Origin: Burkholderiaceae bacterium
Lineage (GTDB): Bacteria > Pseudomonadota > Gammaproteobacteria > Burkholderiales > Burkholderiaceae
DNA: 6,065 nt
NCBI GenBank assembly: GCA_022701845.1
Contig: JAKONS010000051.1
Coordinates: 1-6,065 of the forward strand
Reading direction: 5' to 3'
In this document: positions 9 through 6,065 of the stretch, piece by piece
Layout of the letters: every line of letters starts with the position of its first letter
Numbering within the stretch: the first letter of the stretch is position 1
Notes under the pieces: generated by a model
What the model was told of the DNA's origin: nothing
The model's database searches: none
The model's input: the letters and a program-made list of their open reading frames with translations, nothing else
Translations under genes and position numbers: made by a program

Positions 9-1346
9 ATGAGCCGATTTAGACGACCTGAACAATTCGACCTGCTGCCGTACATCGGCAAGTGGCTCGTGATTGCCTCCGTTGTGGCCTTCCTGGCCGG
101 CAGCGCTTCCGCACTTTTCCTCTTCGCGCTCGACCGCGCCACCGCCTGGCGCGAGGCCAACCGTTGGATCATCTGGTTGCTGCCGCTCGCTGGCGGCGCG
201 GTCGGCTGGGTGTACTTCAAGCTTGGCAAGCAGGTCGAGGCCGGCAACAACCTGCTGATCGACGAGATCCACGACCCGAAGAAGGTCGTGCCGCTGCGCA
301 TGGTCCCGCTCGTCCTGGGCGGCACCGTCATTTCACATCTCTTCGGCGCGTCCGTGGGTCGCGAGGGGACGGCGGTGCAGATGGGCGGCGCACTGGCGGA
401 CCAGCTCACGCACGTCTTTCGAATGCAGCCTGCCGATCGCCGCATCCTGCTGATGGCGGGCATCAGCGCTGGCTTCGCCTCCGTGTTCGGGACCCCGCTG
501 GCGGGGGCACTCTTCGGCCTCGAGGTGCTGGCCATAGGCCGGATGCGCTACGACGCCCTATTTCCCTGCATGGTCGCTGGCATCGTGGCCGATCAGGTCG
601 GCATGGCCTGGGGCGTGCACCACATGCACTACGCGATCGGAGAGGTGGTCGCGGTTACGCCTTGGAGCGTCGGAGCCGTCGTGATCGCTGGTGTGATTTT
701 CGGTCTCGTCGGCCTCGTGTTTGCGACTGCGACGCACCAGCTCGGAGGGCTTGTTAAGCGATGGATCTTTTATCCGCCGCTGCGCCCGATGTTGGGCGGC
801 ATCGTGATCGCGCTCGCCCTCTGGGCTCTCGGCAGAGCGGGCTTCGATGCGCATCGCTACATCGGGCTGGGCATTCCTAGCATCGTCAACGCCTTCCAGG
901 AACCTTCGGCGCCGTGGGATTTTTTTGGCAAGCTGGCCTTCACCGTCACCTCGCTCGGCACAGGCTTCAAGGGCGGCGAGGTCACGCCGCTGTTCTACAT
1001 CGGCGCGACCTTGGGCAACGCCCTGGCGCCCATGCTGCAGCTGCCCTTCGCCATGCTCGCCGGCATCGGCTTTGTGGCCGTGTTCGCGGGCGCGGCCAAC
1101 ACGCCACTGGCCACCATCGTCATGGCAATCGAACTGTTTGGGCCGCAGATCGGACCGCTCGCAGCCATCGGCTGCATCACCAGCTACCTCTGCTCCGGCC
1201 ACACCGGGATCTACCACGCACAGCGCGTCGGTCACATCAAACACCATGGCGGTCCCCCGGAGGAACTGCGTATCGCCGATGTCCCGCAATTCCGTAAAAA
1301 GCAGCAGACCCAGCACGTCTCCGCAACCAAAGATGACCACTCATGA
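9..1346 (+). CDS. CLC-F type (EriC-F) fluoride/proton antiporter
   Basis: A 445-residue polytopic inner-membrane protein of the CLC anion transporter superfamily, predicted to export fluoride in exchange for protons. Three CLC anion-site regions are visible. Chloride CLCs carry GSGIP in the first; here it reads GNNLLIDEIHD (residues 79-89). The second is GREGT (117-121), with Glu119 as the expected gating glutamate and Thr in place of the Pro of chloride CLCs. The third is GFKGGEVTPLF (319-329). A C-terminal SGHTGIY (396-402) sits where canonical CLCs place their anion-site tyrosine. These substitutions are those of the fluoride-selective CLC-F clade, apparently its Asn subgroup. There are no C-terminal CBS domains, as usual for bacterial CLCs. 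The ATG follows a TGA at 1-3 that may end an upstream gene. Only 8 bases precede the start, so a promoter or fluoride riboswitch cannot be judged. The stop overlaps the next start by 4 bases (ATGA). Family assignment is very secure; fluoride specificity is inferred from motifs. Confidence 0.9.
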   Translation: MSRFRRPEQFDLLPYIGKWLVIASVVAFLAGSASALFLFALDRATAWREANRWIIWLLPLAGGAVGWVYFKLGKQVEAGNNLLIDEIHDPKKVVPLRMVPLVLGGTVISHLFGASVGREGTAVQMGGALADQLTHVFRMQPADRRILLMAGISAGFASVFGTPLAGALFGLEVLAIGRMRYDALFPCMVAGIVADQVGMAWGVHHMHYAIGEVVAVTPWSVGAVVIAGVIFGLVGLVFATATHQLGGLVKRWIFYPPLRPMLGGIVIALALWALGRAGFDAHRYIGLGIPSIVNAFQEPSAPWDFFGKLAFTVTSLGTGFKGGEVTPLFYIGATLGNALAPMLQLPFAMLAGIGFVAVFAGAANTPLATIVMAIELFGPQIGPLAAIGCITSYLCSGHTGIYHAQRVGHIKHHGGPPEELRIADVPQFRKKQQTQHVSATKDDHS

Positions 1347-1774
1347 GTCGCGCTGAAAACTATCCGTCGACGGTGATGGCACTGCAGCTGTATTTCCCAG
1401 CCGGCAGCCATGCGAACCCAACCCGTATCTGGTATCACCTGAGCGTTCCAGGGTTTGCGCAGCAACTGTTGGTCTCGGCAAAGCGCGCGCACCTGCAGTC
1501 GGCGCTGCTCTACCACGTCGCATCGGGCCACCTCAAACGAGAGCGCGTGACGCATCATCAGATCGACGGCTCCCACATACTGCATTCGCAGTGCCTGGAG
1601 CTGATTGACACCGAAATGCAGCTACGCGCGTTCATCTGCCACGCGCAGCGCGTCCGCCACGGCAAGCATTGCCAATCCTTGCCCAAAAACCCTCGGCAGG
1701 CGGACATGGCTCAGTTCCGGCGCAAGCAGAAGCAGGAGAAGCGGGACGTTGTTTTGGAGGAGACGAAGTCATGA
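1343..1774 (+). CDS. DUF190-like (PII-like fold) small protein, copy 1
   Basis: A 143-residue soluble protein whose residues about 13-100 resemble DUF190. It has a first strand LQLYFPAG, a helix of the A..L..A...L..ALLY kind, a THH segment, then a strand-helix QCLELIDTEMQLRAF, equivalent to the IEIVDSEEKIEAF type block of DUF190 families. It is a clear sister of the next gene: about half the residues match between LYFPA and the LR.F block. DUF190 proteins have a ferredoxin-like, PII-like fold, have no established biochemical role, and often sit beside fluoride exporters of the CrcB/Fluc type. The C-terminus from about residue 103 departs from its sister and ends in a Lys/Arg/Glu-rich tail (RRKQKQEKRD), so the last strand may be lost or altered. 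The start overlaps the CLC stop by 4 bases. An internal ATG at 1376 (MALQLYF) would give a more typical DUF190 N-terminus, so the true start is uncertain. Confidence 0.72.
   Translation: MSRAENYPSTVMALQLYFPAGSHANPTRIWYHLSVPGFAQQLLVSAKRAHLQSALLYHVASGHLKRERVTHHQIDGSHILHSQCLELIDTEMQLRAFICHAQRVRHGKHCQSLPKNPRQADMAQFRRKQKQEKRDVVLEETKS
1756..1762 (+). promoter_or_regulatory. Strong ribosome binding site that points to the ATG at 1771
   Basis: GGAGGAG lies 8 bases before ATG 1771, and that ATG overlaps the TGA of copy 1 (ATGA). Site and overlap together mark 1771 as the native start of DUF190 copy 2. This matters because the frame opened by that ATG is not the frame that encodes the conserved domain. 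Confidence 0.6.
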
Positions 1775-2207
1775 CGACTCAGGCCCCCACTCCTACGTAC
1801 GACCTGACCGTTTGCGTCTGTACTTTCCCGCCAACAGCCGCGCCAAGGCCACGCGTTTGTGGCACCGATTGGGCGCGCCCGCGCTGGCGCAGCATCTGTT
1901 GGAGGTTGCTCGTCGCTCGGGTATTCAACAAGCCTTGCTGTACCCGATCGGATCGGGCTACCTGCCAGGGGAGCGGCTCACGCACCACCACCTTGAAGAC
2001 CATGCTTTGCGACATCTGCAATGTCTGGAGTTGCTTGACTCTGAAACTCGGCTTCGGACCTTCATGCAGGAGCACGCGGAGGAGTTGGGCAAGGTGCGGG
2101 CCGTTCTTTTCGCTTGCGAGCTTCCAATGACCGACGGCGAGTCGGAGTCGCCAACCAACGCCCAATCGTGCCGACCGCCAGTGCCGCCATCGACACGCGT
2201 CTCATGA
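1771..2207 (+). CDS. DUF190-like small protein, copy 2, with apparent 1-base frameshift near the start
   Basis: From about 1806 to the stop at 2207 the sequence encodes an intact DUF190-like domain: RLRLYFPANS, ARRSGIQQALLY, GERLTHHHLEDH, QCLELLDSETRLRTF and a last strand KVRAVLFACE, then a short Pro/Ser-rich tail. It is the sister of the gene before it. The best start, ATG 1771 with GGAGGAG 8 bases upstream and an ATGA overlap with copy 1, opens a different frame (MTTQAPTPTYDL...). The span 1771-2207 is 437 bases, one short of a multiple of three. One extra C in the five-C run at 1784-1788 would join the frames into MTTQAPHSYVRPDRLRLYF. The gene may therefore be a recent pseudogene, carry an assembly or sequencing error, or be rescued by slippage. 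A TTG at 1749, with AGGAG at 1734-1738, is an in-frame alternative start that would need no frameshift. Function is unknown, as for DUF190 generally. Confidence 0.62.
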
Positions 2208-2264
2208 GAGTGCCAGTCATGGCATCGGCTTCTCTTTTTCGTTCACGCTCACCAGGAGTTCATC

Positions 2265-2624
2265 ATGAAGGGTTTCCAGATCACGTTCTTTGCCGAGCAG
2301 GAACATCGACACGACCACACCCCCATGGGAGACTGGCTTTTGCAATTTGCCAAGGACAACGGTGCGTTGGGCGGAAGCTTGATGGGCGCGGCTACGGGTT
2401 TCGGATCCGCCGGAAAAATGCATTCCACTCACTTTTTCGAACTGGCCCAGCAGCCTGTGGCGGTGACGGTATCGGCCACGGAAGAGGTCGCCGAACGACT
2501 GCTTGCAGCGATTGCGCTTGAGCCGGTCACGGTGTTCTACATCCAGGTGCCAATGGTCTACGGGCGGATCGGCAAAGCAACGCCGCCCGCGTCGGCCGGT
2601 GATGCCGCTGATGCCGGCGATTGA
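2265..2624 (+). CDS. DUF190 domain protein, copy 3 (canonical form)
   Basis: A 119-residue cytosolic protein that matches the DUF190 pattern well. It has a first strand FQITFFAEQEHRH, a helix with MGDWLLQFAKDNGALGGSLMGAATGFG, the KMHSTHFFELAQQPVAVTV block, a TEEVAERLLAAI helix, and a closing strand VTVFYIQVPMVYGRI. It is much further from copies 1 and 2 than they are from each other. The HRHDH and MHSTHF segments give a cluster of histidines that could bind a metal; that is speculation. The ATG is preceded by AGGAG at 2254-2258, six bases upstream. A 57-base gap separates it from copy 2, and its TGA overlaps a possible TTG start of the ABC ATPase. DUF190 genes are common neighbours of fluoride exporters, which supports the same reading for the CLC gene at the front of this cluster. 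The Ala/Gly/Asp-rich last 15 residues are probably disordered. Confidence 0.85.
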   Translation: MKGFQITFFAEQEHRHDHTPMGDWLLQFAKDNGALGGSLMGAATGFGSAGKMHSTHFFELAQQPVAVTVSATEEVAERLLAAIALEPVTVFYIQVPMVYGRIGKATPPASAGDAADAGD

Positions 2625-2659
2625 CCGCAGCGTTGACCTTCGCCGAGGACCGTTTACGA

Positions 2660-3274
2660 ATGACTGTCGACAACTGCTTGCTGGCGATCTCCGGTCTTGC
2701 GTCGCCGTTCGGCGGTCCGTTCGATCTGGCCTTGAACGCCGGCGAATGTGTCTGCGTGCTCGGCAGATCAGGATCGGGCAAGAGCGTCCTGCTGCGCCTG
2801 ATCGCCGACATGGACCCCGGCACCGGCGGCGTGAACCTGGCCGGGAAACGCCGGGAGACATTTGCAGCGCCGGCGTGGCGAGGTCGTGTGATCTACCAGT
2901 CAGCCGAACCCGCTTGGTGGGCGTCAACGCCGGCAGCCCACTTCCCGTCTGCCGCGTCGAGCCGGGTCGCCGAACTGATGGCGGCGCTCGGGCTGGGCCC
3001 GGACCTGCTGGACGCCGACATCGCACGCCTTTCGACCGGCGAGCGTCAACGCCTGGCGCTCGTCCGCTCGATGGTGCGGGAGCCCGACGTGCTGCTGCTC
3101 GACGAGCCTTCGGCCTCGCTCGACGGCGCCTCCACGCTGGCGATTGAATCCCTGCTTCTGCAACAGCTCCGCTCCGGCCTCGGCATCGTGATGGTGACGC
3201 ACTCGCGTGAGCAGGCTGTGCGGATGAGCCATCGCCACTTCGAGATGCGCGACGGCAAGCTGCACGCGCCATGA
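2660..3274 (+). CDS. fetA: FetA-type ABC transporter ATPase (iron/metal export)
   Basis: A 204-residue ABC nucleotide-binding subunit predicted to drive the FetB permease encoded next. Counted from ATG 2660, Walker A is GRSGSGKS (35-42), the Q-loop Gln is at about 80, the signature is LSTGERQ (124-130), Walker B is DVLLLDEP (143-150), the D-loop is SASLD and the H-loop His is 181. The segment after the Q-loop, AEPAWW, is typical of FetA/YbbL ATPases. All catalytic residues are present, so it should be active. In E. coli FetAB exports iron and improves resistance to oxidative stress. ATG 2660 has GAGG at 2645-2648. An in-frame TTG at 2621 overlaps the stop of the DUF190 gene (TTGA) and would add 13 residues (MTAALTFAEDRLR); it is a real alternative through coupling. 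The stop overlaps fetB by 4 bases. The ATPase family and pairing are secure; the substrate is inferred from the pairing. Confidence 0.88.
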   Translation: MTVDNCLLAISGLASPFGGPFDLALNAGECVCVLGRSGSGKSVLLRLIADMDPGTGGVNLAGKRRETFAAPAWRGRVIYQSAEPAWWASTPAAHFPSAASSRVAELMAALGLGPDLLDADIARLSTGERQRLALVRSMVREPDVLLLDEPSASLDGASTLAIESLLLQQLRSGLGIVMVTHSREQAVRMSHRHFEMRDGKLHAP

Positions 3275-4062
3275 GCACCATCCATCTTCACGCCACGGAC
3301 GTGGCGCTCGCCACGTTGCTGGTGCTGATCAACGCCCTGGCGTCCGTGCTCCTGCACCTGCAGTTGCATCGGCAGGTGCTCTGGGCCGCTACCCGCATGG
3401 TCGTCCAGCTCCTGCTGGTCGGCTTGGTGCTGCGCTTCGTGTTCCAGGCGGCGTCGCCGGCGGCCACTCTCGGGATCGTCGCGCTCATGCTGCTGGCGGC
3501 CGCGCGCGAAGTCGCAGTGCGTCCAACTCGGCGTCTCAAGGGTGCCGGGAGTTACCGCATCGCGGCGGTGGTCGTCGGCTTCTCGAGCATCGCCACCGTG
3601 TTGCTCGCATTGATGACGGCGATCCGCCCGCAGCCCTGGTACGACCCGCGCTACGCCATCCCGCTGATGGGCATCGTGCTCGGCAGTGTGCTCAATTCGG
3701 CCAGCCTGGGTCTCGACAGCTTCTTCGAAGGCATCAGCACCGGGCGCCCGGCGATCGAGGCGCAGCTGGCGCTCGGCGCCAGCATCCACCAAGCGCTGGC
3801 CGCACCGATCCGCCATGCGATCCGCCGCGGGATGATTCCGATCATCAACCAGATGTCGGCCGCGGGTGTCATCACGCTGCCCGGCATCATGACGGGGCAG
3901 TTGCTGGCCGGCATGGATCCACTCGAGGCCGTGAAATACCAGATCCTGCTGCTTTTCCTGCTCACAGGCGCCGGCGGTCTCGCGTCGGCGGGCGCGGTCT
4001 ATCTGGCGGCGAGGGCTGTCACCGACGACCGACAGCGCCTGCGCGCAGATCGACTGAAGTAA
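3271..4062 (+). CDS. fetB: FetB-type UPF0014 ABC permease (iron/metal export)
   Basis: A 263-residue inner-membrane protein of the UPF0014 (YbbM/FetB) family. Hydrophobic segments lie at about residues 10-31, 43-62, 66-79, 97-118, 131-148, 188-215 and 225-249. Family landmarks are TRMVVQLLLVGLVL (41-54), DPRYAIPLMGIVLGSVLNSASLGLD (125-149), and ITLPGIMTGQLLAGMDPLEAVKYQI (201-225). The length is normal for the family. It forms the channel half of an ABC exporter with the preceding ATPase, from which it is translated by an ATGA overlap. In E. coli the pair acts in iron export. In plants the homologous STAR1/STAR2 and ALS3 proteins act in aluminium tolerance, so the substrate range of the family is not settled. 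It is the last gene of the overlapping run; about 60 bases without a clear gene follow its TAA. Confidence 0.9.
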   Translation: MSTIHLHATDVALATLLVLINALASVLLHLQLHRQVLWAATRMVVQLLLVGLVLRFVFQAASPAATLGIVALMLLAAAREVAVRPTRRLKGAGSYRIAAVVVGFSSIATVLLALMTAIRPQPWYDPRYAIPLMGIVLGSVLNSASLGLDSFFEGISTGRPAIEAQLALGASIHQALAAPIRHAIRRGMIPIINQMSAAGVITLPGIMTGQLLAGMDPLEAVKYQILLLFLLTGAGGLASAGAVYLAARAVTDDRQRLRADRLK

Positions 4063-4104
4063 CACTCAGATCATGTTTCGAAAATCCCGAATCTAAAGAA
4101 GATC

Positions 4105-4224
4105 ATGAACAGGCACCTTGCTTGTGCGCTCGCCTGGGCATCGCCGCCGCATCTGCGACGTTCAATGGCTCGGCTGAGAACACCCACGCCACCGGATCCG
4201 CATGCCGACAGGCAGGGCAATTGA
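4105..4224 (+). other. Short ORF ahead of the phosphoglycerate mutase, possible leader or relic
   Basis: ATG 4105 opens a 39-codon frame beginning MNRHLACALAWAS and ending at a TGA (4222-4224) that overlaps a TTG at 4221 in the mutase frame. AAAGAAG a few bases upstream is a weak ribosome site. The peptide is Pro/Arg-rich after residue 13 and resembles no family I know. It could be a coupling leader, the relic of a decayed gene, or chance. The mutase frame is also open across this stretch from a TTG at 4122, but that frame encodes an Ala/Ser-rich sequence unlike any GpmA N-terminus. Confidence 0.2.
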
Positions 4225-4226
4225 AC

Positions 4227-4973
4227 GTGTCGGCGCCACGATCGCAGGTGCAACTGCTGCTCATCCGACACGGTGAGTCCGAATGGAACCTGGCACAGCG
4301 TTTCACCGGCTGGGCCGACGTGGGTCTCACGCCGCGGGGTGTGCGTCAGATGCAGGAGGCCGGCCGTGCGATTCGGCGGTCAGGTCTGGTCGTCGACCGC
4401 GTCTTCTCCTCGATGCTGGTCCGTTGCGTACGGTCTGTCGACTGCTTGCTGCTCGCAGCGGGAAGTCCATCGGCGCCACGCACAGCCGACTGGCGGTTGA
4501 ACGAGCGGCACTATGGTGCATTGACGGGGTCATCCAAGGCCGAAGCCATCGCGCGGTACGGTGCCGATCAGGTGCAAGCTTGGCGCAGGTCGTACCGCGC
4601 GGTACCGCCGCCGTGGACTCAGGACGATGTCGATCGGGTGGCGACGGATCCATCGATGGAACCACCCTGCGCAGGGCTGGAACCCCTGCCCTTGGCGGAA
4701 TCACTCGCGCAAACCGTTCTGCGGGTGACCGCGCTCTGGCAGGAACTGATCGAACCATCATTGGCGTCGGCCCAAACGGTAGCTGTCGTCGGTCATGGCA
4801 ACAGCCTGCGGGCGCTGGTGATGCAGCTTGAAGAACTCAGTGAACAAGCGGTCTCGTGCCTGGAGATCGCCAACGGCGAAATGCGTGCCTATGAGTCAGG
4901 CGCTGGTCGCACACTGCATCTGCAATGCATCTGGCAGCCATCTGCGCTGGCGCCCATCTCAAAAATTCTTTGA
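4227..4973 (+). CDS. gpmA: 2,3-bisphosphoglycerate-dependent phosphoglycerate mutase, divergent accessory copy
   Basis: A 248-residue cytosolic enzyme of the histidine phosphatase superfamily, predicted to interconvert 3- and 2-phosphoglycerate through a phosphohistidine. Counted from GTG 4227, the phosphohistidine motif RHGESEWN is at 14-21 (His15), FTGWADVGLT at 26-35, LNERHYGALTG at 91-101 with the catalytic Glu93, WRRSYRAVPPPW at 119-130, and the second catalytic His190 in GHGNSLRAL. The length matches E. coli GpmA. Two places deviate: the usual SS.L.RA..T block reads SSMLVRCVRSV, and the usual IPTG.P loop near the end reads IANGEM. This suggests an accessory paralogue rather than the housekeeping gene. 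Start choice is uncertain. GTG 4227 has AGGG at 4214-4217. TTG 4221 overlaps an upstream TGA. TTG 4122 would add 35 residues with no GpmA counterpart. Its place after a fluoride exporter operon fits a role in protecting lower glycolysis, which is inference. Confidence 0.83.
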   Translation: MSAPRSQVQLLLIRHGESEWNLAQRFTGWADVGLTPRGVRQMQEAGRAIRRSGLVVDRVFSSMLVRCVRSVDCLLLAAGSPSAPRTADWRLNERHYGALTGSSKAEAIARYGADQVQAWRRSYRAVPPPWTQDDVDRVATDPSMEPPCAGLEPLPLAESLAQTVLRVTALWQELIEPSLASAQTVAVVGHGNSLRALVMQLEELSEQAVSCLEIANGEMRAYESGAGRTLHLQCIWQPSALAPISKIL

Positions 4974-5052: not shown

Positions 5053-5430
5053 ATGAAATCTTCCCTTCTGCCCACCCTGATTCTTGCGCTCGCCGCGCTC
5101 GCCTCTGGCGCCGCTATGGCCGCCGCTCCGGTCAAGACAGCCGGCGGCATGCTGGTCAACACCAGCGGCATGACGCTCTACACCTTCGACAACGACACGG
5201 CGGGCAGCGGCAAGAGTGCCTGCAACGGCCCGTGCGCCGGACTGTGGCCACCGGTGATGGCAGAAGCGGACGCGAAGCCCGAAGGCGACATGACCATCGT
5301 TGTGCGCGACGACGGCACCAAGCAGTGGGCCTACAAGGGCAAGCCGGTGTACCTGTACAAGTCCGACATGAAGGCCGGCGACATGACCGGCGACAACTTC
5401 AAGAACGTCTGGCACGTCATCAAGCCCTGA
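5053..5430 (+). CDS. Secreted PF03640 (COG4315) repeat protein
   Basis: A 125-residue exported protein. Residues 1-23 are a typical Sec signal peptide (MKSSLLPTLILALAALASG, then AMA), with likely cleavage after Ala23 or Ala24. There is no lipobox cysteine at the cleavage site, so this member is probably a soluble periplasmic protein although the family is often labelled lipoprotein. The mature part has the two PF03640 repeats. The first, GMTLYTFDND (39-48), leads into the conserved CNGPCAGLWPP (57-67) with Cys57 and Cys61. The second, GKPVYLYKSD (96-105), leads to MTGDNFKNVWHVI. The biochemical function of the family is not known. The paired cysteines and many Asp residues would allow metal or redox roles, which is speculation. 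AGGA at 5043-5046 sits six bases before the ATG. It is the first gene of the ECF sigma unit and is probably a target of that sigma factor. Confidence 0.9.
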   Translation: MKSSLLPTLILALAALASGAAMAAAPVKTAGGMLVNTSGMTLYTFDNDTAGSGKSACNGPCAGLWPPVMAEADAKPEGDMTIVVRDDGTKQWAYKGKPVYLYKSDMKAGDMTGDNFKNVWHVIKP

Positions 5431-5466
5431 TCGACCAGAACCGCAGAGAGCACGACGCTTCATCCC

Positions 5467-5991
5467 ATGCGCGCACAGGACGAAGCCGCGATCGTCGCCT
5501 GCATTCCCAGCCTGCGCCGTTACGCGCGCGGGCTGGTGGCAGATACCACTCGGGCCGACGACCTGGTGCAGGACACGCTGGAGCGAGCGTGGAGCCGGTT
5601 CTCGCTTTGGCAGAAACGCGGCGACATCCGCGCCTGGATGTTCGGCATCATGCACAACCACTTCATCGACGGTGTACGCGCCAGGAGCAGCCGACCCGAG
5701 GACAGCGCGGGCGACGACCTGCCCGAAATCCCGCAGCGTGCCAGCCAGTCCGACGGCATTGAGGTCCGCGATCTGGACCGTATCCTGCAGCGGTTGCCTG
5801 TGGAGCAACGCGAGGTGATGCTGCTCATCGCAGTCGAAGAACTAAGCTACGCAGAAGCCGCCGCAGTGCTCGGCGTGCCCATCGGCACGGTGATGTCCCG
5901 CCTGGCGCGCGGCCGTGACAAGCTGCGACAGGAACTGCAAGGCCGCGCGCCATCAGCCCAAGTTGCCGCGCCCCTGCGCAGGATCAAGTGA
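5467..5991 (+). CDS. ECF-family RNA polymerase sigma factor (sigma-70 group 4)
   Basis: A 174-residue sigma factor with only the two domains of the extracytoplasmic-function class. Sigma region 2 spans about residues 10-75, with RYARGLVADTTRADDLVQDTLERAW for core binding and RAWMFGIMHNHFID for -10 recognition. A variable linker covers 76-100. Region 4 spans about 103-155, with LDRILQRLPVEQREVMLLIAVEELSYAEAAAVLGVPIGTVMSRLARGRDKL, a helix-turn-helix for -35 recognition. The length is normal and there is no extra C-terminal domain. It follows the secreted protein by 36 bases. Its own ribosome site is weak, so it may depend on translation or transcription from upstream. A probable anti-sigma gene starts one base after its stop. 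The family is certain; the signal and the regulon are unknown, apart from the nearby GGAAT-N17-CGTCT element. Confidence 0.93.
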   Translation: MRAQDEAAIVACIPSLRRYARGLVADTTRADDLVQDTLERAWSRFSLWQKRGDIRAWMFGIMHNHFIDGVRARSSRPEDSAGDDLPEIPQRASQSDGIEVRDLDRILQRLPVEQREVMLLIAVEELSYAEAAAVLGVPIGTVMSRLARGRDKLRQELQGRAPSAQVAAPLRRIK

Positions 5992-5992
5992 C

Positions 5993-6065
5993 ATGGACTC
6001 TCCCCCACTCAAACCCATTTCCACCGACGGCATCAAGCCGGTGACCGAAGCCGATCTGCATGCTT
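5993..6065 (+). CDS. Probable anti-sigma factor, N-terminal fragment (cut by the window end)
   Basis: ATG 5993 begins an open frame that runs off the window after 24 codons (MDSPPLKPISTDGIKPVTEADLHA). The PVTEADLHA segment is characteristic of the N-terminus of transmembrane anti-sigma factors that partner beta-proteobacterial ECF sigmas, where it usually continues into a YVDG type segment. The start lies one base after the sigma stop, as expected for a coupled sigma/anti-sigma pair that must be made in balanced amounts. No strong ribosome site is visible, again consistent with coupling. The membrane segment and sensor part would lie beyond the window, so they cannot be checked. Confidence 0.65.
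   Translation, partial: MDSPPLKPISTDGIKPVTEADLHA

Follow-up and report, generated by a model that had tools for sequence, protein, structure and literature searches.

The stretch of DNA considered here (the window) comprises 6,065 nucleotides of the genome of a Burkholderiaceae bacterium (GenBank assembly GCA_022701845.1) and carries a cassette of seven genes, all on its plus strand: a gene for a predicted CLC-F type fluoride/proton antiporter, three DUF190 genes (D1, D2, and D3), genes for a FetA-like ATPase and a FetB-like permease (fetAB), and a gene for a phosphoglycerate mutase (gpm). All seven were found where a first reading of the bare letters (the sequence-only reading) had placed them (Table 1), and its proposal that they form a fluoride-response set is supported by a fluoride riboswitch upstream and by a gene order that recurs in other genomes. 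As had also been stated, most junctions between 1343 and 3274 overlap, by a few bases each at CLC/D1, D1/D2, D3/FetA, and FetA/FetB; the exception is a gap of 57 bases between D2 and D3. About 160 bases lie between fetB and gpm, a gap in which a consensus scan revealed no promoter- or terminator-like site. Riboswitch, exporter, and a spare copy of a fluoride-affected enzyme stand in line in the sequence, and we put at about 85% the probability that the cassette is, as its composition predicts, a horizontally spread, riboswitch-controlled fluoride-resistance operon. A transferable fluoride-resistance operon is a known kind of system; comparison with the literature searched suggests that fetAB, a chimeric DUF190 gene, and a PII-like DUF190 protein as exporter gate are features without prior report. 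In our numbering the genome is G000 and the window occupies C26:368179-374243 on the minus strand, with 800 bases to the contig end; codes beginning with L, P, and G denote loci, database proteins, and sampled genomes, respectively.

Table 1. Predicted features of the cassette and its leader. Upstream positions are numbered such that base 0 is the base preceding window base 1.
Feature	Position	Strand	Basis
Promoter-like site	-174..-145	+	sigma-70-like consensus
Fluoride riboswitch aptamer	-145..-73	+	RF01734, 45.2 bits
Anti-aptamer segment	-55..-48	+	complementary to aptamer 3' end
CLC-F type fluoride/proton antiporter (predicted)	9..1346	+	PF00654, E 6.8e-70; CLC-F structures are the best match
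D1, chimeric DUF190-like	1343..1774	+	DUF190 body, residues 1 to ~97, with CLC-F C-terminal tail, ~98-143
D2, DUF190 of the CLC-F-adjacent class	1771..2207	+	relatives; frameshift near start in window genome
D3, canonical DUF190, PII-like fold	2265..2624	+	PF02641, 43.5 bits (cut-off 23.4); structure model
FetA-like ABC ATPase	2621..3274	+	ABC_tran, E 3.6e-22
FetB-like permease (UPF0014)	3271..4062	+	PF03649, E 6.9e-75
2,3-bisphosphoglycerate-dependent phosphoglycerate mutase, second copy	4227..4973	+	TIGR01258, 207.3 bits (cut-off 81.7); His_Phos_1

The riboswitch, the CLC-F exporter, and related loci

A search upstream of base 1, the check that the sequence-only reading had called for, located an RF01734 fluoride riboswitch just outside the window (G000:C26:374389-374317), which scored well over the gathering cut-off of 34 bits with the covariance model and covered all of its positions 1-64. 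A promoter-like pair of hexamers that agrees with 10 of 12 consensus positions (one found, against a shuffle mean of 0.3) ends where the aptamer match begins. The 3' end of the aptamer, GCCTACAG, can pair by complementarity with CTGTAGGC, which lies 20-odd bases downstream. Leaders were compared at 54 of 80 CLC-F loci, with the aptamer located by regular expression, and an anti-aptamer complement of at least 6 bases was present in 50 of them, the remainder being L033, L038, L039, and L081. Since a TTTT within 15 bases after the anti-aptamer segment was counted in four leaders and not in the other 50, a Rho-dependent or translational form of control is possible. The anti-aptamer hairpin, such as that at -84..-48 of the window, mostly has no T-run behind it. 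Among the other leaders, L051 has four aptamer-like matches, and L082 has two upstream of a CLC-F match that is split into parts more than 5 kb apart (2519-2713 and 8001-9119; approximately residues 1-65 and 65-436). A match to sX6 in the Rfam scan of the window (15.9 bits against a cut-off of 40) was discarded as chance.

The lead gene had been assigned to CLC-F from its motifs, and the assignment holds: GNN, GREGT, and GFKGGEVTP are present at residues 79, 117, and 319 of the protein. We take GNN, GREG, and GGEVTP to be marks of the anion site. When solved structures were ranked, the CLC-F entries 6d0j, 6d0k, and 6d0n scored 195-198 bits (6d0j, 198) against 41.9 bits for the best other CLC, and the alignment with 6d0j covers both the gating glutamate of GREG and the GGEVTP region. 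The ratio of nonsynonymous to synonymous substitution rates (dN/dS) of 0.11-0.15 over three pairs indicates purifying selection. Pfam and NCBIfam label the protein only as CLC, which would also suit an ordinary chloride/proton CLC in a cassette for acid resistance, and a more ordinary CLC (33% identical), encoded about 16 kb away in the same genome, could be cited in favor of such a role; however, the scores of the CLC-F structures are nearly five times those of other CLCs, the chloride-CLC equivalog cut-offs are far off (best 90.6 against 482), and a fluoride riboswitch precedes the gene. The chloride CLC identity was rejected on the riboswitch and the structure scores, and we regard acid resistance as a highly improbable function. 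Elsewhere in the genome (G000:C9:20126-21623; L004 8127-9630), a second fluoride riboswitch accompanies a second CLC-F gene, 77% identical to that of the window, and no DUF190, FetAB, or mutase gene was recognized by eye in the open reading frames (ORFs) read around it.

The company kept by CLC-F genes was assessed by counting same-strand neighbors in the 4 kb or so that follow CLC-F at the 80 loci, of which 76 offered the full 4 kb (E < 1e-5), with the window's own proteins as the only queries. D1/D2-type genes were found at 33 loci, D3-type at 27, Gpm-like at five, and FetB at four, such that DUF190 is the commonest downstream neighbor of CLC-F among the window genes sought, in agreement with the earlier statement that DUF190 genes adjoin fluoride exporters. 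Pfam searches of ten neighboring ORFs identified enolase in L014, L034, and L077 and histidine phosphatase in L014, L034, and L058; three ORFs had no family. Units in Achromobacter, Paraburkholderia, Pseudomonas, and other bacteria (L014, L052, L154, and further loci) share with the window a CLC-F gene followed by two DUF190 classes, and some also carry enolase and other fluoride-target enzymes; they differ in that 76 of the 80 loci have no FetB match downstream.

A close order outside the cassette itself is that of a Massilia forsythiae plasmid island (L092, NZ_CP051686), which reads mutase, enolase, histidine phosphatase, riboswitch, CLC-F, DUF190, crcB (on the opposite strand), FetA, and FetB. 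It shares with the window cassette and its leader the succession of riboswitch, CLC-F, DUF190, and fetAB, with FetB 68-73% identical and a mutase nearby, but differs in its enolase, histidine phosphatase, and opposite-strand crcB genes, its one DUF190 gene, and its divergent mutase. Other plasmid islands combine DUF190, eno, and ppa (Pseudomonas putida and P. amygdali), CLC-F, DUF190, crcB, and DUF190 (Paraburkholderia fungorum and Comamonas), or gpm, eno, a universal stress protein gene, CLC-F, and DUF190 (Klebsiella pneumoniae and Enterobacter ludwigii); fetAB is not listed in the stretch read of these six islands, whose gene tables are incomplete. On plasmids L157 and L159, arsenic-resistance genes adjoin the fluoride genes. 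The GI3 operon of Enterobacter cloacae FRM has six genes under one riboswitch, of which gpmA and eno rise about 10-fold and 177-fold, respectively, under fluoride (PMC5533749). It resembles the window cassette in its fluoride riboswitch, its exporter gene, and its phosphoglycerate mutase, and likewise bears signs of horizontal transfer, whereas its exporter is CrcB, accompanied by ppaC, uspA, and eno, in place of CLC-F with DUF190 and fetAB; eno, ppaC, and uspA are not among the nine scanned ORFs of the window.

Two classes of DUF190 and a chimeric member

Among the three genes that had been named DUF190, D3 alone passes the Pfam cut-off; D1 and D2 reach no Pfam family, the gathering score of PF02641 included. 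Their relatives fill this gap: of the 25 members of the D1/D2 alignment, all but D1 of the window (24 in total) match PF02641 at E <= 1, and the Massilia homologue exceeds the cut-off (28.7 against 23.4). Profile comparison between the D1/D2 and D3 classes gave a weak match (E 0.014, probability 3%). D1 and D2 are DUF190 proteins by their relatives and make up a second class that adjoins CLC-F. The count of three genes can thus be kept, with the amendment that two of them fail by Pfam alone and that D1 is chimeric and D2 frameshifted. The D2 lesion, a one-base frameshift near the start, is present in the window genome, the gene being intact in L011 and L012. In L012 (Acidovorax soli), the third DUF190 gene (10262-10600) is frameshifted near its end. 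That two genomes have each lost one DUF190 gene suggests that the copies are redundant, although sequencing error is possible.

A structure model of D3 (mean predicted local distance difference test score, pLDDT, 79.0) matches 1o51 (E 1.6e-6, template modeling score 0.84 by target), CPII, 2dcl, and SbtB, which suggests that D3 may be a PII-like, nucleotide-sensing gate on the exporter. The SbtA-SbtB complex (7egk), in which a PII-like protein regulates a bicarbonate transporter, resembles this arrangement as a small PII-like protein working with an anion transporter, but the likeness to D3 is one of fold alone. Both DUF190 classes occur fused in single proteins (L077 9413-10186, a 257-residue ORF, as well as P0155 and P0182), and these fusions suggest that the two classes may work together. 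In the literature searched, papers naming DUF190 and papers on fluoride did not overlap. If such a PII-like partner exists, fluoride export would be adjusted to the energy state or the nucleotides of the cell.

D1 differs from other DUF190 proteins in its last 45 or so residues, which align with the tail of the cassette's own CLC-F with a score of 82, a value reached by none of 5000 shuffles (best 48). When this tail was compared with 121 CLC-F sequences (120 database matches and that of the window), P0017 was best, at 134, and the window's own CLC-F ranked 23rd. A database search with D1 returned four proteins, of which P0001 and P0002 are fused in the same way, while P0003 and P0004 are unfused relatives, 69% and 64% identical over the body, that end as normal DUF190 proteins; in the 25-row D1/D2 alignment, only the two D1 rows of the window cassette are chimeric. 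A simple local tandem duplication is weakened as the source of D1, given that the body resembles P0003 (69%) more closely than it does D2 (about 50%), and that the tail is nearer to the CLC-F of P0017 than to the cassette's own. Body and tail come from different parts of fluoride cassettes, probably joined by recombination between two CLC-F/DUF190 units; such a recombination with an internal deletion fits better. The plasmid search with P0017 yielded no record of at least 80% identity, and a DNA search with the D1 tail and D2 yielded six records at 68% and no donor locus. For D1, three pairs with few changes between them gave dN/dS values of 0.26-0.53, a sign of weak to moderate selection, and the values for its tail alone (0.19-1.35, on 6-7 changes per pair) span the range from constrained to unconstrained. 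The structure model of D1 is of low confidence (mean pLDDT 66.5), and Foldseek matched nothing to it at E <= 0.001; 2dcl and SbtB, which came up only as weak matches among unrelated folds, were not used as proof of a PII-like fold. The chimera points to a possible place on the exporter at which a DUF190 partner could bind.

FetAB, the second mutase, and a proposed mechanism

The naming of fetA and fetB in the sequence-only reading stands at the level of domains, as ABC_tran and UPF0014 were both found, and falls short of the NCBIfam equivalog cut-offs, which are missed by FetB (137.6 against 410 bits) and by FetA (94.9 against 292 bits). Over three pairs, dN/dS was 0.09-0.19 for FetB, indicating purifying selection, and 0.27-0.37 for FetA. 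The FetAB pair of Escherichia coli is reported to be an iron exporter (PMC6338753, PMC6928379), and overexpression of fetA-fetB also protects against nickel (PMC6338753). The latter finding, the distance of both window proteins from the equivalog cut-offs, and a sequence search of the PDB that matched no FetB structure are compatible with export of a substrate other than iron that matters under fluoride, whether aluminium, magnesium, or a metal-fluoride complex; yet several of the nearest annotated relatives are named FetB by NCBI, and we treat a non-iron substrate as possible and somewhat doubtful. A 2024 review (PMC11139923) describes divalent cation transporters as over-represented in operons of fluoride exporters and contains neither the term 'iron' nor the term 'ABC transporter'. 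Among the titles listed in a literature search, none dealt with FetAB in fluoride operons; two genome or proteome papers contain both 'fluoride' and 'FetB'. If FetAB is indeed a member, it would tie fluoride stress to the efflux of iron or another metal.

FetB was found beside CLC-F in L011, L012, L036 (Pandoraea captiosa), L088 (Pseudomonas sp. P7548), and L092 (the Massilia plasmid). In a FetB tree of 44 rows, which left out L146 (172 residues), the five fluoride-linked rows fall on three branches, as supported splits require: a single clade (97/84) unites the window with L012 and Massilia, and L036 and L088 belong to two others. FetA matches below 35% or below 33% identity were left out of the comparisons. 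A sample of 300 genomes of the order held 15 genomes with FetB and 53 with a riboswitch match (44 over the cut-off); three FetB genes lay within 10 kb of a riboswitch, where a simple argument from lengths predicts 0.064 pairs. Judged by coordinates, the same three pairs, and no others, were recovered from 398 genomes of the phylum, of which 103 gave a FetB match, many of them weak, and 67 a riboswitch match. The recurrence of fetAB beside CLC-F can be described as real but thin.

The mutase call is upheld, since the protein passes the TIGR01258 cut-off and keeps its motifs; the equivalog PRK14115 was missed (218.8 against 305 bits). By rule its ORF opens at 4122, but homology sets in some 40 residues later, and translation more likely starts at GTG 4227 or TTG 4221. 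The gene encodes a second 2,3-bisphosphoglycerate-dependent mutase, 47% identical to the genome's other copy on C25, and RHGES, ERHYGAL, and HGNS, presumably the catalytic motifs, are common to the window mutase, 3lnt, and that other copy. Comparison with L012 revealed 14 synonymous and seven other base changes in 248 codons, a sign of conservation. The row PGM92, whose gene is cut off at the edge of its record and had been read in a wrong frame, was left out. Two of the five Gpm-like matches downstream of CLC-F belong to the window cassette, Pfam identifies those in L014 and L058 as histidine phosphatases, and that in L077 is weak (26%). A mutase-like gene (47-48%) lies on the other strand 3-5 kb upstream in L075 and L077, and phosphoglycerate mutase and eno occur near CLC-F on plasmids L092, L158, and L159. 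A small ORF of 39 codons (window 4105-4224) lies between fetB and gpm, with its stop just before the mutase start, and is open by eye in L011 too.

Taken as an operon, the cassette may work in the following way. Rising cytoplasmic fluoride would stabilize the aptamer, such that the anti-aptamer segment could not pair and the operon would be expressed, whereupon CLC-F would export fluoride against protons. The DUF190 proteins, PII-like and by analogy trimeric, could attach to the exporter on its cytosolic side and adjust its activity to energy state or adenine nucleotides, in the way that SbtB acts on SbtA. Iron, or another metal that is loosened or mis-complexed when fluoride is present, might be removed by the FetAB-like pump, thus lessening oxidative damage, and, as enolase in lower glycolysis is fluoride-sensitive, an extra phosphoglycerate mutase might offset the block there. 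A bolder combination, which we consider quite improbable as a whole, would have DUF190 proteins act as PII-like gates that recognize the C-terminal tail of the exporter, D1 as a soluble regulator that captured the tail of another CLC-F and hence brings along a binding site, serving as a decoy or tether in an oligomer of DUF190 proteins, and FetAB as a selected, fluoride-induced metal exporter.

Spread of the cassette and its boundaries

Recurrence of the gene order had been proposed as a check, and its outcome favors the sequence-only reading. The whole order is found in L011 (Xylophilus sp. Leaf220) and L012 among the 80 CLC-F loci, and fetAB stands by CLC-F in L036, L088, and L092, but fetAB is a rare partner. 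DNA identity to the window is 97-98% in L011, where a break of about 1.4 kb separates two blocks, and 94% in L012, in one block of 10.2 kb; G171 carries the same cassette and may be identical with the Leaf220 strain. Homology with L011 and L012 starts at window -468, beyond which the flanks differ, with a transposase fragment (PF05598, DUF772) at the contig end in the window genome and unlike integrase genes in L011 and L012. D1-like genes occur in three of 289 genomes of the family (the window's own, G171, and, at 48%, G133). Within the genus, D1 was found in none of three sampled genomes, FetB in neither of two, and CLC-F not in the one sampled. This sparse distribution, together with a common order behind differing upstream flanks, points to recent horizontal transfer of the cassette.

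Several observations weigh against the operon as outlined. FetAB had been described earlier as not a standard part of fluoride operons, and the pair is rare, at four of the 80 CLC-F loci, two of which are the window cassette. The three changes on the FetB tree could also be one gain and two losses. Two of the three FetB-riboswitch pairs of the order sample are again the window cassette (the window's own genome and G171), the third being in G056, and without the window cassette the proximity is weak evidence. At L088, fetAB and its flank are syntenic with another Pseudomonadota genome, G619, where no CLC-F match better than 26% was found, and the unit of riboswitch and CLC-F stands immediately in front of that fetAB locus; the association there may therefore be an insertion by chance, or it may reflect selection. 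No fluoride genes were found around the FetB relatives L138-L140 or those on plasmids L091, L093, and L094, three of the four plasmid loci read among the matches listed in a FetB search (30 of 341 records), which belong to Methylobacterium nodulans, Cupriavidus sp. EM10, and Pannonibacter phragmitetus. Among the 80 loci, only the window cassette has a true mutase downstream of CLC-F, and about 160 bases precede it. Finally, every step by which DUF190 and FetAB would act under fluoride is inferred, and fluoride induction of the cassette is a prediction from sequence.

These points lend some weight to a narrower unit of riboswitch, CLC-F, and DUF190 only, in which fetAB and gpm would be island passengers by proximity. 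It is consistent with the gap before gpm, with close FetB relatives outside fluoride loci, and with the content of the shared block, which exceeds 10 kb and holds genes without a known fluoride link (Lipoprotein_15, an extracytoplasmic function (ECF) sigma factor, and a beta-propeller protein). However, overlaps of a few bases connect D3 with fetA and fetA with fetB, fetAB stands beside CLC-F on two other branches as well as in Massilia, gpmA belongs to the proven fluoride operon of E. cloacae (PMC5533749), and the Lipoprotein_15/sigma factor stretch seems separable from the cassette; we consider the narrower unit unlikely and prefer an operon that extends through gpm. The latter stretch, 5118-6065, is matched at 92% on four plasmid records, the match being without the cassette, such that 5053-6065 seems to be a separate mobile block and the passenger part seems to begin after gpm. 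Window 5053-6065 encodes a secreted Lipoprotein_15 repeat protein and the ECF sigma factor.

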